This document shows positions 21,112-55,325 of a stretch of DNA of 64,000 nt, piece by piece. Origin of the DNA: Bacteroidia bacterium (GTDB lineage Bacteria; Bacteroidota; Ignavibacteria; SZUA-365); contig JAOSJT010000001.1 in assembly GCA_027493955.1 (NCBI GenBank), positions 3,893,131 to 3,957,130 of the forward strand, read 5' to 3'. The notes beneath the pieces are model-generated. The model did no database searches. It saw only the letters and a list, made by a program, of their open reading frames with translations, and was not told the DNA's origin. A program made the translations under genes and the position numbers. The stretch's first letter is position 1. Every line of letters starts with the position of its first letter.

Positions 21112-21171
21112 CAAGATGCAATGGTGCGCTGGAGTACCACGAACCTCACCCACGAAGGCTCAGTGCAACGT

Positions 21172-21339
21172 ACGTCCTGGCAGGTCTCCTGACTCGCAGC
21201 CCGGTTTTCTGAACCAGCACGCACTCCTTCCCGGGTGAACCCAGTGGTTGCTGCGCGTGCTTGCGCTGCTTACAGTTGCGGGGCAGTTGCCGATTCCCAC
21301 GGCATTCCCATTTTCGTTCCAACAAGGAAACCAGAACGT
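21172..21339 (-). ncRNA. Cobalamin (B12) riboswitch aptamer
   Basis: On the minus strand the conserved blocks appear in order: a 5' core with GGGAAT, then CAACTGCCCCGCAACTGTAA, CCACTG, GGGAAGG and the B12 box AGTCAGGAGACCTGCC. The closing helix P1 pairs ACGTTCTGG (5' end) with CCAGGACGT (3' end), nine pairs with one wobble, which fixes the boundaries. It controls btuB and the BtuG-like gene; B12 binding should favour the downstream terminator. Confidence 0.95.
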
Positions 21340-21666
21340 CATGTCAAAGAACGCCTTGGTAACCTACGGCGGCAGGAGGTGAGATGCAACACTTGCACTG
21401 CGACCCGCATTCGTCGGGGAATACGTACACGGATGTCGCGGATGGTACGCTGATCTGCGCAGAGGTCCATTATGAGGATGGAAACGTGGATATCACGGAT
21501 GAACAAGCGTACGCGCTCAACAGCTCTTCGGTGGCTGCAGCAGGCAGTTTCCTTGTGATCTCAGCAACCCGGCACTACCTCCGCATTTTTCCAAGGAATG
21601 TGTTCCGTGCGTCATGAAGGTCATACAGCGGCGAGACGGCTCCGGCACAATCCCCGAAACAGGAGC
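21340..21666. other. Gap between riboswitch and tadA, no gene recognised
   Basis: Short open frames are present on both strands but have no recognisable motif, signal or ribosome site. The segment presumably contains the tadA 3' end region and the promoter for the riboswitch transcript; no clear promoter element was seen. Confidence 0.4.
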
Positions 21667-24866: not shown

Positions 24867-26195
24867 ATGAAGCACGTACTGATCGTCACATATTACTTCC
24901 CTCCTTCCGGTGGTCCGGGAGTACAGCGCGTGCTGAAATTCACGCAGTATCTGTTGGAGTTCGGTTGGAATCCGGTGATTCTTACCGTGAAGGATGCGGA
25001 CTACCCCGCACGGGATGAATCGCTCCTGAAAGAAGTACCGTCCGAAGCCATTGTGTATCGCACACCGATACTCGAGCCCTACGACATCTACCGACGCTTT
25101 ACCGGGAAGAAGAAAGGCACACCGGTGGACGTCAACACCATTCCCAAACCGGGCGAGAAACGTTCGTTGACGGAGCGTCTTGCGGAGTTCATACGCGCGT
25201 CGCTGTTCATCCCCGATGCGCGCATCGGCTGGCTGCGTCCCGCCGTGAAGGAAGGGCTGGAGATTATCCGTGCGCACGATATCAAGGCGATATACAGCTC
25301 CTCGCCTCCGTACACATGCTCAATGATTGCGCGCCGTTTGAAACGTGAGGCGGGTTTACCCTGGATAGCGGGCTTTCGCGATCCATGGACGGGTTTTCTC
25401 TCAGCGCCAAAGCGCTGGTGGCTGCCCGCGATGATCGACAGGCATTTCGAGAAATCGGTGTTCGCGGAATGCGACCGCATGGATGTCGCCTGGGAAGGTA
25501 TTCTCAAGGATTTTCACGCGAAATATCCCAACATCGCGACGGATAAAGTGCATCACTTGCCGAACGGTTTCGACAGCAGGGATTTCCCGACGGTGGAGGT
25601 GATGGACAGTGACCATTTCACCATCACGTATACCGGTTCGATGTACGGCAAGCGCAATCCCGAGACGTTTTTGAGGGCTGTGGCATCGCTGGTTGAAAGC
25701 GGCAAAGTGGACCTTGCGAAGATTCGCCTGAAGTTCATAGGCCGCTTCGGTGTCGAGGTGCGCGAGATGTTCGAGCATCCTTTGCTGCGCGGGTCCATTG
25801 TCGTCCACGAGTATATGCCGCATGCGGACAGCGTACGCCATCTCTTTCAGTCCGACGCGCTGCTGATGGTGGTAGATGATTTCCAGGGCAACGAAGAAAT
25901 CGTGCCGGGCAAAGTGTACGAATACATGGGCTCAGGGCGTCCTGTGATCACGCTCGCGCCCGAGGGTGCCGTCACGAAAGTTATTGAGGAAACACGGTCC
26001 GGCCGATGCGCCCGATCCAACGATGTTCCGGGTATCGCCGACGTCGTCCTCGACATGTATCGTCAGTGGCAGGAAGGCAGGCTCGGAGGCGATCAGCGCC
26101 GCGATGAAGTGAAGCAGTACGAGCGCCGCGAAGTCACGCGGCGGCTTGCATCCCTGCTCGATGAAGTATCGGAGAGCGGAGAGCATACAGTGTAG
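24867..26195 (+). CDS. Family 4-type glycosyltransferase
   Basis: A 442-residue GT-B glycosyltransferase. The N-terminal domain opens VLIVTYYFPPSGGPGVQR, the glycine-rich acceptor loop typical of this group. The C-terminal donor domain has HHLPNGFDSRDF, ITYTGSMYGKRNPE and the E-x7-E type motif region GNEEIVPGKVYEYMGSGRPV. It probably adds sugars to a surface polysaccharide or protein glycan; donor and acceptor are unknown. It is a lone gene here, not in a polysaccharide cluster. The ATG at 24867 starts the conserved N-terminus. The last codons contain two AGAGC heptamers (26168-26181). Confidence 0.88.
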   Translation: MKHVLIVTYYFPPSGGPGVQRVLKFTQYLLEFGWNPVILTVKDADYPARDESLLKEVPSEAIVYRTPILEPYDIYRRFTGKKKGTPVDVNTIPKPGEKRSLTERLAEFIRASLFIPDARIGWLRPAVKEGLEIIRAHDIKAIYSSSPPYTCSMIARRLKREAGLPWIAGFRDPWTGFLSAPKRWWLPAMIDRHFEKSVFAECDRMDVAWEGILKDFHAKYPNIATDKVHHLPNGFDSRDFPTVEVMDSDHFTITYTGSMYGKRNPETFLRAVASLVESGKVDLAKIRLKFIGRFGVEVREMFEHPLLRGSIVVHEYMPHADSVRHLFQSDALLMVVDDFQGNEEIVPGKVYEYMGSGRPVITLAPEGAVTKVIEETRSGRCARSNDVPGIADVVLDMYRQWQEGRLGGDQRRDEVKQYERREVTRRLASLLDEVSESGEHTV

Positions 26196-30857: not shown

Positions 30858-31293
30858 ATGAAGATCAAGGATATCGTCAAAGCCAAGGGCGCCACCGTGT
30901 TCAGCATCCACCCGGACAAGACGGTACGCGATGCCATCGGCATGCTGGTGCAGTACAACATCGGCTCGCTGCTTGTCGTGGAAGACGCGCGCCCCGTCGG
31001 CATCTTCACAGAGCGCGATACGCTGCGCATCTGCGCGAAAGAGGATGTACGCCTGGAGGACGTCCGCATTGCCGATGTCATGACCAGGGATCTCATTATC
31101 GGAGAGCTCGAAGACGACGTTGAAGACATGATGAAAGTCATGACCTCCAAACACATTCGCCACCTCCCCATTCTCGAAAATGGGTATCTCGCCGGCATGG
31201 TGTCCATCGGTGATCTCGTCAAATCCCAGTTGGACGAAAACGCTGTCACCATCCATTACCTGCGCGACTACATTACCGGGAAGGACATGCGGT

Positions 31294-31295
<2 letters not shown>
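30858..31295 (+). CDS. Tandem CBS-domain protein
   Basis: A 145-residue protein made almost entirely of two CBS motifs: the first ends LVVEDARPVGIFTERDTLRI, the second ILENGYLAGMVSIGDLVK. Such stand-alone pairs bind adenosine nucleotides (AMP, ATP, SAM) and act as energy sensors for partner proteins, which are unknown here. A GGAG ribosome site is present eight to ten bases before the ATG. The stop codon is embedded in the first unit of a heptamer array that fills the 3' flank. Confidence 0.9.
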
Positions 31296-31352
<57 letters not shown>

Positions 31353-31493
31353 ACGCTCGTGCGTTACGAACGTCCGTGTAGCGAACAATATCCGCTGTTT
31401 GGGTATTGTGCTCATCCGACCGTCCCGCCTTCTGAAGTCAGGTGCCAGCACGATTCGAGCCCCCCGCACGGCTGTGCGCTTTGCTCTACATTT

Positions 31494-32152
31494 CCCGCCT
31501 GCGCCAAAACAAATTATCGGGATCCCGCAGCGCTGTGCAATGGCTTCGGCGGGCAGGCCCTATCCTCCTGAACTGGGGTGCTTGTACAATGCGAGCGATT
31601 CCGCACAGACATGCTCTCTGCTCTTCGCTCTCCCCGCCTGCGCCAAAACAAATTATCGGGATCCCGCAGCGCTGTGCAATGGCTTCGGCGGGCAGGCCCT
31701 ATCCTCCTGAACTGGGGTGCTTGTACAATGCGAGCGATTCCGCACAGACATGCTCTCTCCGCTTCGCTCTCCCCGCCTGCGCCAAAACTAATTATCGGGA
31801 TCCCGCAGCGCTGTGCAATGGCTTCGGCGGGCAGGCCCTTTCCTCCTGAACTGGGGTGCTTGTACAATGCGAGCGATTCCGCACAGACATGCTCTCTGCT
31901 CTTCGCTCTCCCCGCCTGCGCCAAACAAATTATCGGGATCCCGCAGCGCTGTGCAATGGCTTCGGCGGGCAGGCCCTATCCTCCTGAACTGGGGTGCTTG
32001 TACAATGCGAGCGATTCCGCACAGACATGCTCTCTACGCTTCGCTCTCCCCGCCTGCGCCAAAACAAATTATCGGGATCCCGCAGCGCTGTGCAATGGCT
32101 TCGGCGGGCAGGCCCTTTCCTCCTGAACTGGGGTGCTTGTACAATGCGAGCG
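31494..32152. repeat. 139-bp tandem repeat array (about 4.7 copies)
   Basis: Five units start at 31494, 31633, 31772, 31911 and 32049, so the spacings are 139, 139, 139 and 138. The last unit stops after about 104 bases. Units are nearly identical, differing by single substitutions (e.g. ACAAATT to ACTAATT, CCCTATCC to CCCTTTCC) and one deleted A. Each contains a perfect CGGGATCCCG palindrome and, on the minus strand, three AGAGC heptamers. The preceding 50 bases look like a decayed copy. The array fills the space between convergent CBS and EnvC-like genes. Reading frames through it are artefacts: 139 is not a multiple of three and the same peptide recurs in different frames. Confidence 0.97.
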
Positions 32153-32182: not shown

Positions 32183-33430
32183 TTACCGCTTCGCGAGCCA
32201 TTGCAATGGATCGAGCTTTTGGCGTTTATACCAGAGTTCGAAATGCAGTCGAGGACCGCTGATGCCTTCGCCGCTCCTCGCTATGCTCTGACCTGCCGTT
32301 ACCTGCTGGCCTTTGCGGGCATTGATCTGCGAAAGGTGGGCATACACAGTAAAGAAGCCGCCCGCATGCTCTACGATGATGAGACTACCGTAGCCGGGAA
32401 TGAACTCCTGCATCTTGACCGTACCATCGGCGACGGCCTTGACGGTGGATCCAAGTGGCGCCGCTATGTCAATCCCGGGACTGATGGTAACGGTACCAAG
32501 TGTCGGATTGACGTTTTCTCCGAAAAATTCGACGACCGCCCCTGTGCCACCGGGCCAGGGAAGCCGACCTTTCAGTTTTCCGATAGCGGTATTCGCGATG
32601 GGTACGCTGGGTAATTCCTTATAGTCGCTGCCTTTCTTGCCGCCCGGAGTTTTTTTCCTGGATTCACTTTCCATGCGACGACGCTCACGCTCGATGAGAT
32701 CGGCAATGATGCGTTCGACACGTTTGGCTGCTTCCTGCTTGCGGCGAAGCTGTGTCTCGTACGACTGCCTGTCCTGACGCACCTTGACGAGCAGTTGTTG
32801 ATGCTCCTGTACTCGTCGCTGCAGATTCTGCTCTTCGCTCCGTTTTTCGCGGATGTTCTGCTGTTGTTCGTTCAACTTCTGCTCAAGCAGAGTCTTCTGC
32901 AGAGCGATCTTTTCCTTGCGTAAGCGGATTTCCTCCGCATCGAGACGGGCACGTTCCGAATAGGCTTTCAGATATTTCGAACGGATGAACAATTCATTGA
33001 CACTTCCTGAGCTGAATAACAATTCGGTATCATGCGTCCGTCCGCGACGGTACATATTCACGATCGTGCGCGCGTACTCGCGCTTCAGCTGTTTAAGCTC
33101 GTTCTCGGCGACACTCAGATTCAATTGTGCAACGGCGATTTCCTTCTGATTCTGAGCAATATCCTCGGTCAGTTTGTTCACCAGCGACCGAATCAGCAGT
33201 GTTTGTCTGTCGAAGTCGTCAAGACGCTGAATGGTGCTCTGTTCACGTTTCCGGTTTTCCTGAATCTGCTTCTCGAATTTTTTGATTTCCTCGCGCAGGG
33301 ATTTCAATTCGGCCTCTCTGCTCTTGACCCCGCCGGAGCGCTTCTGAGCGGATGCATCAACCGATACCAGAAGTTGCTGGAGTGCAAGGAAACACACGAT
33401 GGAAAATATGATGCCGGGACGAGCTTGCAT
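32183..33430 (-). CDS. EnvC-like degenerate LytM (M23) protein, murein hydrolase activator
   Basis: A 415-residue periplasmic protein. A signal sequence (IIFSIVCFLALQQLLVSV) leads to a long coiled coil (about residues 35-265), then a LytM/M23 domain at about 305-415. The domain retains ISPGIDIAAP, GYGSLIIVEHAGGF and VYAHLS, but lacks two zinc ligands: the His of HxxxD is replaced, and the HxH motif reads GPRLHFEL. Like E. coli EnvC it should therefore activate amidases at division rather than cut peptidoglycan. Start at 33430 is chosen because the signal peptide follows; ATG 33481 and TTG 33487 are alternatives. TPR, DUF4292 and M23 genes in this order form a common Bacteroidota cluster. Confidence 0.88.
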   Translation of the reverse strand: MQARPGIIFSIVCFLALQQLLVSVDASAQKRSGGVKSREAELKSLREEIKKFEKQIQENRKREQSTIQRLDDFDRQTLLIRSLVNKLTEDIAQNQKEIAVAQLNLSVAENELKQLKREYARTIVNMYRRGRTHDTELLFSSGSVNELFIRSKYLKAYSERARLDAEEIRLRKEKIALQKTLLEQKLNEQQQNIREKRSEEQNLQRRVQEHQQLLVKVRQDRQSYETQLRRKQEAAKRVERIIADLIERERRRMESESRKKTPGGKKGSDYKELPSVPIANTAIGKLKGRLPWPGGTGAVVEFFGENVNPTLGTVTISPGIDIAAPLGSTVKAVADGTVKMQEFIPGYGSLIIVEHAGGFFTVYAHLSQINARKGQQVTAGQSIARSGEGISGPRLHFELWYKRQKLDPLQWLAKR

Positions 33431-53918: not shown

Positions 53919-55106
53919 ATGGAATTTCTCGATATACTCCTTCTCATCGGCTCAGCGCAGGGATTTTTTCTCGCCGTGTTCCTGCTGCACCGCCATCGCC
54001 GTCTGTATGCCACCCGCTTTCTCGCCGCGTTGCTCTTCCTCTACTCGGTTGTCCTGCTGCATCTCTTCATCGGCGACAGAGACTGGTACCACGCCGCCCC
54101 GCGCATCATGCTGGTGCTCAGCGGACTTCCGCTGGTAACAGGACCGCTGCACTATCTGTACGCCCGTCATCTCATTGATCCAGCGCGCCGATTACGGCAG
54201 AAGGACGCAGTGCACGGAATTCCGTATGTAGTGTACCTTCTTGCGATGCTGCCTCTTTTTCTGCTGCCGGCCGAATCCATTATTCCCGCGTTATTCCGGA
54301 ATTCCTGGTACGGTTTTCCGCGGCATTTCATGGTGCTCAACTGGGTGCTTGTGGTACAGGCGCTCAGTTATTTAGGGGCAACGTTGCTGTTGTTGTTTCG
54401 GTATGAGCGCGAGGTGTGCGATTTATTTTCCTGCATTGAACGCGTGCGCCTGACCTGGCTGCGGAACATCACCCTCGTCGTTATCTCCGGCTGGGTAGCG
54501 TTCCTCGTGGAAAATATCCTGCTGGTAAGCGGACTCCATTCACCGCAATTGTTTGGCATGTCGGGTATTCTGGGTGTGGTATGTGTCTATGCGATGGGCT
54601 ATCTCGGGCTGACGGCTTCGGGGGTGTTCAGCGATCCCGAGGTGGACGCTTCCATTCGTGAGATCGCCGCCAAACATGAGCGGCACGTTCCCGAAAGCAC
54701 ACCGCAACGGACGGCGCGGTATGAAAAATCCGGTCTGAGCGCAGAGCGTGCCGAAGACATCATGCATCAATTACTGGACGTGATGGAAAACGAGCGCCCG
54801 CATCACGACAGCGACCTGACCCTGCCCAGATTGGCAAAGCGTCTGGATATTTCGCCGCATAATCTTTCCGAAGTCCTGAACACCCGCACCGGGATGAACT
54901 TTTTCGATTTTATCAATTCCTATCGCGTGGATCAGGTAAAGCGCGATCTGGCCGATCCCGCAAAGCAACAGTACAAGGTTCTGGCCCTGGCCTTCGATGC
55001 GGGCTTCAGTTCAAAAACCACCTTCAACACGATTTTCAAGAAATTTACCGGTATGACGCCTTCCGAGTGGCGGGAACACGCGGAGCGGGTGGAGCAAAGA
55101 GCGTAG
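53919..55106 (+). CDS. Membrane-anchored AraC-family transcriptional regulator
   Basis: A 395-residue protein. The first 235 residues contain about seven hydrophobic helices (ILLLIGSAQGFFLAVFLLH, FLAALLFLYSVVLLHLFIG, MLVLSGLPLVTGPLHYLYA and others). The C-terminal AraC helix-turn-helix pair spans about 285-390 (LTLPRLAKRLDISPHNLSEV, VLALAFDAGFSSKTTFNTIF, FTGMTPSEWRE). Bacteroidota encode such 7TM-AraC fusions that may sense signals in the membrane; ligand and target genes are unknown. The stop codon lies within an AGAGC heptamer array. Confidence 0.9.
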   Translation: MEFLDILLLIGSAQGFFLAVFLLHRHRRLYATRFLAALLFLYSVVLLHLFIGDRDWYHAAPRIMLVLSGLPLVTGPLHYLYARHLIDPARRLRQKDAVHGIPYVVYLLAMLPLFLLPAESIIPALFRNSWYGFPRHFMVLNWVLVVQALSYLGATLLLLFRYEREVCDLFSCIERVRLTWLRNITLVVISGWVAFLVENILLVSGLHSPQLFGMSGILGVVCVYAMGYLGLTASGVFSDPEVDASIREIAAKHERHVPESTPQRTARYEKSGLSAERAEDIMHQLLDVMENERPHHDSDLTLPRLAKRLDISPHNLSEVLNTRTGMNFFDFINSYRVDQVKRDLADPAKQQYKVLALAFDAGFSSKTTFNTIFKKFTGMTPSEWREHAERVEQRA

Positions 55107-55143
55107 AGCAAGGAGAGCCGAGAGCAAAGAGCTTAGAGCAGAG
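55093..55143 (+). repeat. Degenerate heptanucleotide array (AGCAAAG/AGCGTAG type) at the araC stop
   Basis: About seven 7-mers (AGCAAAG, AGCGTAG, AGCAAGG, AGCCGAG, AGCAAAG, AGCTTAG, AGCAGAG, with one two-base phase slip) run across the regulator's TAG stop at 55104-55106. Confidence 0.85.
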
Positions 55144-55217
55144 AGTTCTCATCTCGAATATCCCTGGCCATTGACAGCTACCCGTTCTTCGCATACCCGG
55201 GGAAGTAGCACCAGAAA

Positions 55218-55256
55218 TAAAAAGAGGGATGAGTCTTTATACTCGCCCCTCTTTTG
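55218..55256. terminator. Bidirectional terminator between the AraC-type regulator and aconitase
   Basis: AAAAGAGGG with ATGAGT pairs with ACTCG and CCCCTCTTTT around a short loop, with A- and T-flanks, between two convergent genes. Confidence 0.8.
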
Positions 55257-55289
55257 TTTAGAGCTCGATTCTTAGAGAGACAGGCGCTT

Positions 55290-55325
55290 CCGCTCTCTGC
55301 TCTCTGCTCTCAGCTCTACGCTCCT
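55290..55325 (-). repeat. Degenerate heptanucleotide array (AGCAGAG type) at the aconitase stop
   Basis: On the minus strand the 7-mers AGCGTAG, AGCTGAG, AGCAGAG, AGCAGAG, AGCGGAA follow the aconitase end; the TAG stop (55316-55318) is part of AGCGTAG. Inverted relative to the array at 55093. Confidence 0.85.

Follow-up and report, generated by a model that had tools for sequence, protein, structure and literature searches.

What kind of sequence makes up the near-perfect 139-bp tandem array that separates two convergent genes of this Bacteroidia bacterium, and how might it have arisen there? The window analyzed here, 64,000 nucleotides in all, spans positions 3893131-3957130 of a genome assembled as a single 5.24-Mb contig. 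In our judgment the array quite probably arose when the right half of a composite repeat of MITE/BOX-like character, non-coding and dispersed through intergenic sequence, was multiplied via slippage or unequal recombination at heptamers. The observations that carry this reading are the modular make-up of the unit, the dispersal of element cores, the near-empty gaps at the same site in relatives, the inverted arms, the turnover of their heptamers and the varied sizes of tandem units elsewhere in the genome.

Table 1. Features of the array, its flanks and related elements (window coordinates)
Feature	Position	Strand	Identification or remark
CBS-domain gene (PF00571)	30858..31295	+	Flanking gene of the array
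Left heptamer arm, (NNAGAGC)8 at 31297-31352	31294..31352	+	Begins at the CBS gene stop codon
Basic element: inner left arm, TIR-like AGAGCACGCTCGTGC, core, TIR-like GCACGGCTGTGC	31330..31487	+	73% identical to the L017 element
Original right half, ancestral diverged B with degraded heptamers	31424..31493	+	Alignment with module B
Unit 1	31494..31632	+	A 31494-31559, B 31560-31632
Unit 2	31633..31771	+	A 31633-31698, B 31699-31771
Unit 3	31772..31910	+	A 31772-31837, B 31838-31910
Unit 4, 138 bp, A short by one base	31911..32048	+	A 31911-31975, B 31976-32048
Unit 5, partial	32049..32152	+	A 32049-32114, B cut at 32152, before the heptamer tail
M23 peptidase gene (PF01551), convergent	32183..33430	-	Flanking gene of the array
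Second heptamer-armed element, convergent-gene gap, unrelated core	55096..55319		Heptamer arms, gene context

The array and its two modules

TRF calls the array at 31494-32152 with a period of 139, 4.7 copies and 97% matches, and unit alignment likewise recovers the four full copies and one partial copy, spaced 139/139/139/138, that a preliminary description of the locus had listed. That description also held that the copies had hardly diverged, and this is borne out: pairs of full units match at 134-137 of 139 positions, the partial fifth unit matches the rest at 102-103 of 104, and the units are 96-99% identical overall. Five columns vary among the units; column 69 reads A, A, T, A, T, and differences at 127/129 fall in the heptamer tail. 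In TRF a 277-bp period outscores the 139-bp one by a small margin (1290 vs 1262), and the variants at columns 69 and 127/129 fit duplication of a dimer, units 2 and 3 giving rise to units 4 and 5. Judged from the assembled sequence, the distinguishing variants of the units and the one-contig genome argue against an assembly artefact. Long ORFs run across the array because its period is not a multiple of three in stop-poor sequence, and so are not evidence of coding. A coding array was rejected, since the frame shifts with every unit and no ORF is conserved, in line with the earlier view that the repeat has no coding logic.

Each unit consists of two modules: A (66 bp), whose ends on the minus strand are GCCTGCCCGCCGAAGC and GCGCAGGCGGG, and B (73 bp), which finishes in GCTCTNN heptamers. 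The AGAGC heptamers previously noticed on the minus strand are indeed present in the array; the plus-strand (NNAGAGC)8 arm, also present, had not been connected to it. Searching the host genome with the unit, as had been proposed, returned 28 matches, many covering just the first ~65 or the last ~70 bases, and A and B recur separately and in varied order—as B-B-B arrays, as A beside B, and as A between heptamers. The A-B copies in L011 are only ~80-83% like those of the window, so the near-identity within the window reflects local amplification after divergence. Module B corresponds to the right half of an intergenic element that is dispersed over the genome and that A often trails. The decayed upstream copy of the preliminary description is real, but it aligns with module B only and represents the element's original right half. 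The label of minisatellite, similarly, fits the array itself yet overlooks the composition of its unit from two modules that belong to element families spread over the genome.

Module A has a wide distribution of its own. Its minus-strand start, GCCTGCCCNCCGAAGC, occurs exactly 43 times in this genome, compared with 3 occurrences of the reversed-pattern control with one mismatch allowed, and is rare in family members. Most of these copies belong to a 62-bp cousin that has both ends in common with A but another interior, and that often lies beside ACGATTT-like heptamers; as the left end of A was the search key, the independent evidence is solely the conservation of the other end, GCGNAGGCGGG. 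In L233 (977-1299), a 71-bp tandem repeat (GTGTCGCCCTTCGGACCAGGAGAACGGGTGAG...) adjoins a 62-bp A-like array, and similar sequence lies in L194; this is another amplified intergenic repeat.

Inverted heptamer arms across the genome

The element to which B belongs has a consistent layout: an (NNAGAGC)n arm leads into a TIR-like ACGKYCGTGC and the core, after which the TIR returns inverted, ahead of a (GCTCTNN)n arm and often a trailing A. At other loci the same order reads as (NNAGAGC)n arm, AGAGCACGGTCGTGC, core, GCACGGCCGTGCTCT and (GCTCTNN)n arm. Searching with 164 bp of L017 brought up six further near-full-length copies, that of the window among them, making seven in total with L017. Basic elements measure ~160 bp plus arms, and the amplified window element, which occupies the gap from the CBS stop codon up to the M23 gene, ~860 bp. 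The second element of the window has both arms touching the ends of its flanking convergent genes. A lone heptamer doublet, GGAGAGCGGAGAGC, lies at window 26171-26184.

Heptamers of this type are abundant: the triple AGAGCNNAGAGCNNAGAGC occurs 249 times in the genome and its reversed-pattern control 0 times, so that 7-nt direct repeats exceed chance as in long simple sequence repeats (SSRs). As elements in this genome were counted through searches, their number is a minimum. Among fetched loci, the AGAGC arm precedes the GCTCT arm in all 20 clusters that bear both orientations, an outcome with a probability of ~1e-6 under independent orientation and somewhat higher when each set of related copies counts as one. 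Of 40 inner ends, 23 match ACGGCCGTGC in at least 6 of 10 positions, vs 3% of random window 10-mers, and in 11 of 20 left/right pairs one or both sides match the TIR consensus at fewer than 6/10. The cores are mostly unrelated in sequence, though many inner ends have ACGKYCGTGC in common.

Some cores, nonetheless, are shared among distant places. L202, L205 and L251 are nearly identical across ~200 bp, trailing A-like module included, and lie in unrelated flanks; their left arms hold about 31, 10 and 1 heptamers. The neighboring elements L030a and L030b have almost identical cores with arms of (GGAGAGC)12 vs (AGAGAGC)7. Near-identical cores in unrelated flanks, together with differing arm counts, indicate that cores disperse and that arms turn over quickly. 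L015 and L017 also have ~100 bp of right flank in common. Nor is the window element alone in being amplified, as others form tandems of 47 bp (with occasional steps of 54 = 47+7), 55 bp and 74 bp, and an A-like 62-bp unit is repeated six times. The elements in L011, L012, L015 and L017 adjoin another palindromic repeat, GTAGAGACGCCCGGCCGGGCGTCTCTAC-like, which is common to L015 and L017.

Relatives, folding and competing explanations

The CBS/M23 pair is kept convergent in seven genomes of the same family, where the genes are separated by 6, 12, 24, 44, 111, 117 and 118 nt, measured between aligned coding ends with stops mostly included; the gap in this genome is 893 nt, stop codons included. 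Most of the relatives are represented by assemblies in fragments, a kind prone to losing repeats, although the gaps used are continuous sequence. The array unit is absent from all 11 other family genomes searched, a fourfold AGAGC-heptamer array is present in only 7 of 296 sampled genomes of the phylum, this one included, and the relatives are too diverged to provide an exact empty site at this gap. The recent expansion proposed in the preliminary description is thus supported by the near-identical units, the higher-order dimer and the nearly empty gap in relatives, and the same evidence makes instability likely, in keeping with its suggestion of copy-number variation between strains. One relative (G011, L214) carries in the same gap its own 8-bp repeats, GGTGAGGC, and an A-like palindrome, CCCGCCGAAGC...GCGAAGGCGGG, and the gap may therefore have been colonized independently there.

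The element might instead serve as a functional bidirectional terminator or mRNA 3'-end stabilizer, its inverted arms forming a long hairpin between convergent genes that extra units would strengthen. Its position between convergent stop codons suits such a role, as does the strong fold of the basic element (z -7.8, with 90% of cells pairing), although that fold arises because the arms are inverted repeats. For the basic element, covariation does not clearly exceed that of column shuffles and lends no support to a selected RNA, so the hairpin may merely reflect the inverted repeats; a terminator/promoter scan stands at chance level, with 1 terminator-like site vs 1.0 expected from shuffles. 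The unit itself folds no better than shuffles on either strand (z -0.5 and -0.6), which leaves unsupported, for the unit, the structured RNA array that had been offered as one option. Gene context, taken from codon-score gene calls, places 13 of 37 clusters in convergent, 20 in same-direction and just 4 in divergent gaps; the scarcity of the last favors a role at transcript ends, but the convergent share is not significantly above that of window gaps (13/37 vs 9/51, p=0.08), and enrichment between convergent genes is suggestive only. Relatives, moreover, manage with gaps of 6-118 nt. We regard a terminator or stabilizer function as unlikely. At gathering score, the Rfam scan has no match in the array and a single one in the window, a cobalamin riboswitch at 21162-21350 on the minus strand (99.6 bits).

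Could replication slippage alone, without any mobile element, have produced a plain minisatellite or heptamer simple-repeat locus? According to PMC4679880, citing Mrazek 2007, heptamers outnumber other classes of long simple repeat in most of the bacterial genomes studied. No cause for this abundance is generally accepted. Heptamer arrays also lead the exact short tandem repeats of our sampled loci (period 7 in 45 of 51 triplets, a biased sample). Similar direct arrays occur in many phyla: among the matches listed (L063-L142), AGAGC-type arrays are found in Lentisphaerae, Verrucomicrobia, Planctomycetes, Desulfobacteraceae and Bacteroidales. Slippage leaves unexplained, however, the strictly inverted arms, the common TIR-like ends and the cores that are near-identical between distant loci although their flanks are unrelated, and we think it improbable as the whole account. 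Inverted arms were also sought elsewhere and set aside, as the heptamer arrays at the 80 other-genome loci listed are almost all direct-only; a single one of these loci, L103, has opposed arms, ~5 bp apart. Least plausible of all, to the point of being very improbable, is a protein-binding-site or nucleoid-organizing array, that is, spaced cis-sites for a DNA-binding protein. The regular 139-bp spacing of near-identical sequence would fit it, and the palindrome CGGGATCCCG of the preliminary description is found in every array unit. A binding-site array centered on that palindrome is not supported, however, as the palindrome is missing from all six other module A copies read and is not conserved among A copies; spacing also varies among elements (47, 55, 62, 74 and 139 bp).

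Possible origin and likeness to known repeats

If the array is indeed the amplified half of a dispersed composite repeat, the genome-wide pattern, from which arrival and duplication steps are inferred, suggests a sequence of events. In this lineage a basic element, perhaps mobilized in trans, would have arrived between the CBS and M23 genes, and heptamers would have grown outward from its GAGAGC edge. Short homologies among the heptamers may then have primed a tandem duplication of right half, right arm and A, giving the first A+B copies, and unequal exchange or slippage, including the dimer duplication, could have brought these to 4.7 units. Copies of the element could instead have spread without transposition, via segmental duplication or gene conversion. 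Between convergent stop codons the array is probably neutral or mildly selfish, and looks less like machinery with a dedicated function, and any effect on transcript 3' ends via hairpin formation would be secondary.

Evidence on mobility comes from flanks, ends and transposases. No clear target-site duplication was seen in the flank alignments (L202/L205/L251; L015/L017), where heptamer arms blur the borders. GAGCACGKYCGTRC occurs in 12 places only, none an obvious IS-sized pair of ends, and Y1-family matches, the one family searched, include no mobilizing transposase with matching ends. A plasmid or phage origin was rejected, with no match among plasmids and phages and no viral contig carrying the end of module A. 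It had been anticipated that the unit might prove to be part of an element already known; it is indeed part of a larger repeat family, but no previously described family with that sequence was found among plasmids, phages or Rfam.

Prokaryotic MITEs (Correia, Nezha, Chunjie, QMITE; PMC10969869) offer one template. Like them, the element has inverted TIR-like ends, a basic size below 500 bp and a dispersed, multicopy, intergenic distribution, its sites are near-empty in relatives, its cores have diverged more than its ends, and near-identical copies lie at unrelated sites. It differs in being GC-rich rather than AT-rich, in heptamer arrays that extend outside the TIR, and in the target duplications and partner transposase not found in the flank alignments and Y1-family search. 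Pneumococcal BOX elements, composed of boxA-(boxB)n-boxC and reported to be over-represented between convergent genes (PMC3049150), offer another: both are composite intergenic repeats with distinct ends, variable tandem internal modules and a strong foldback. In this genome the left end is fixed and copies of B or A+B vary in number, but the right end lies within the repeated module, so that one end of the element is itself amplified. In further contrast to BOX, the ends carry heptamer arms, and the modules measure 73 bp (B) and 66 bp (A). The comparison concerns architecture and claims no sequence relation; by this analogy the window element would work like BOX rather than being BOX.

REP/RAYT systems (GTAG, CGTC families; PMC3733652) resemble A and its 62-bp cousins as short, palindromic-ended, dispersed repeats that are sometimes tandem, but REPs measure 20-40 bp, vs 62-66 bp here with mainly the ends pairing. 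Membership of module A was rejected, as the genome's only Y1 transposase match, the Y1_Tnp locus L232 (4215650), is unlinked to it, having neither A-type ends nor heptamer arms nearby.

Heptanucleotide SSRs are the remaining comparison. Cyanobacterial STRRs are period-7 intergenic arrays, phylogenetically scattered and essentially direct repeats. The TAACTGA (PMC4679880) and GGGAATC (PMC4692102) SSRs are likewise reported essentially as direct repeats, the latter being a G-quadruplex heptamer reported in Xanthomonas. The arrays described here share the period of 7, the intergenic setting and the phylogenetic scatter, and differ in that their arms are inverted pairs around a core. In the literature searched on heptamers and repeats we found no description of inverted heptamer-armed elements. 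It is conceivable, if doubtful, that they form a previously undescribed class of composite bacterial element in which heptamer SSRs are integral to the mobile unit and always inverted. After insertion, heptamers would then grow from the outer edge of the TIR (GAGAGC) and serve as handles for recombination, which would amplify the right half. Such a class, if real, would trace heptamer SSRs, which are common across bacteria and lack an explanation, to mobile elements. The inverted, fast-changing arms provide a concrete system for testing how repeats originate and how larger tandem duplications follow, and the array is a good candidate locus for strain typing (VNTR). This genome also holds arrays of the AATCGGG class, a rotation of GGGAATC, and further period-7 arrays of GGGAATC-type, AATCCGC, AAGAGTG and AAACGTT occur in L204, L016 and other own-genome loci.
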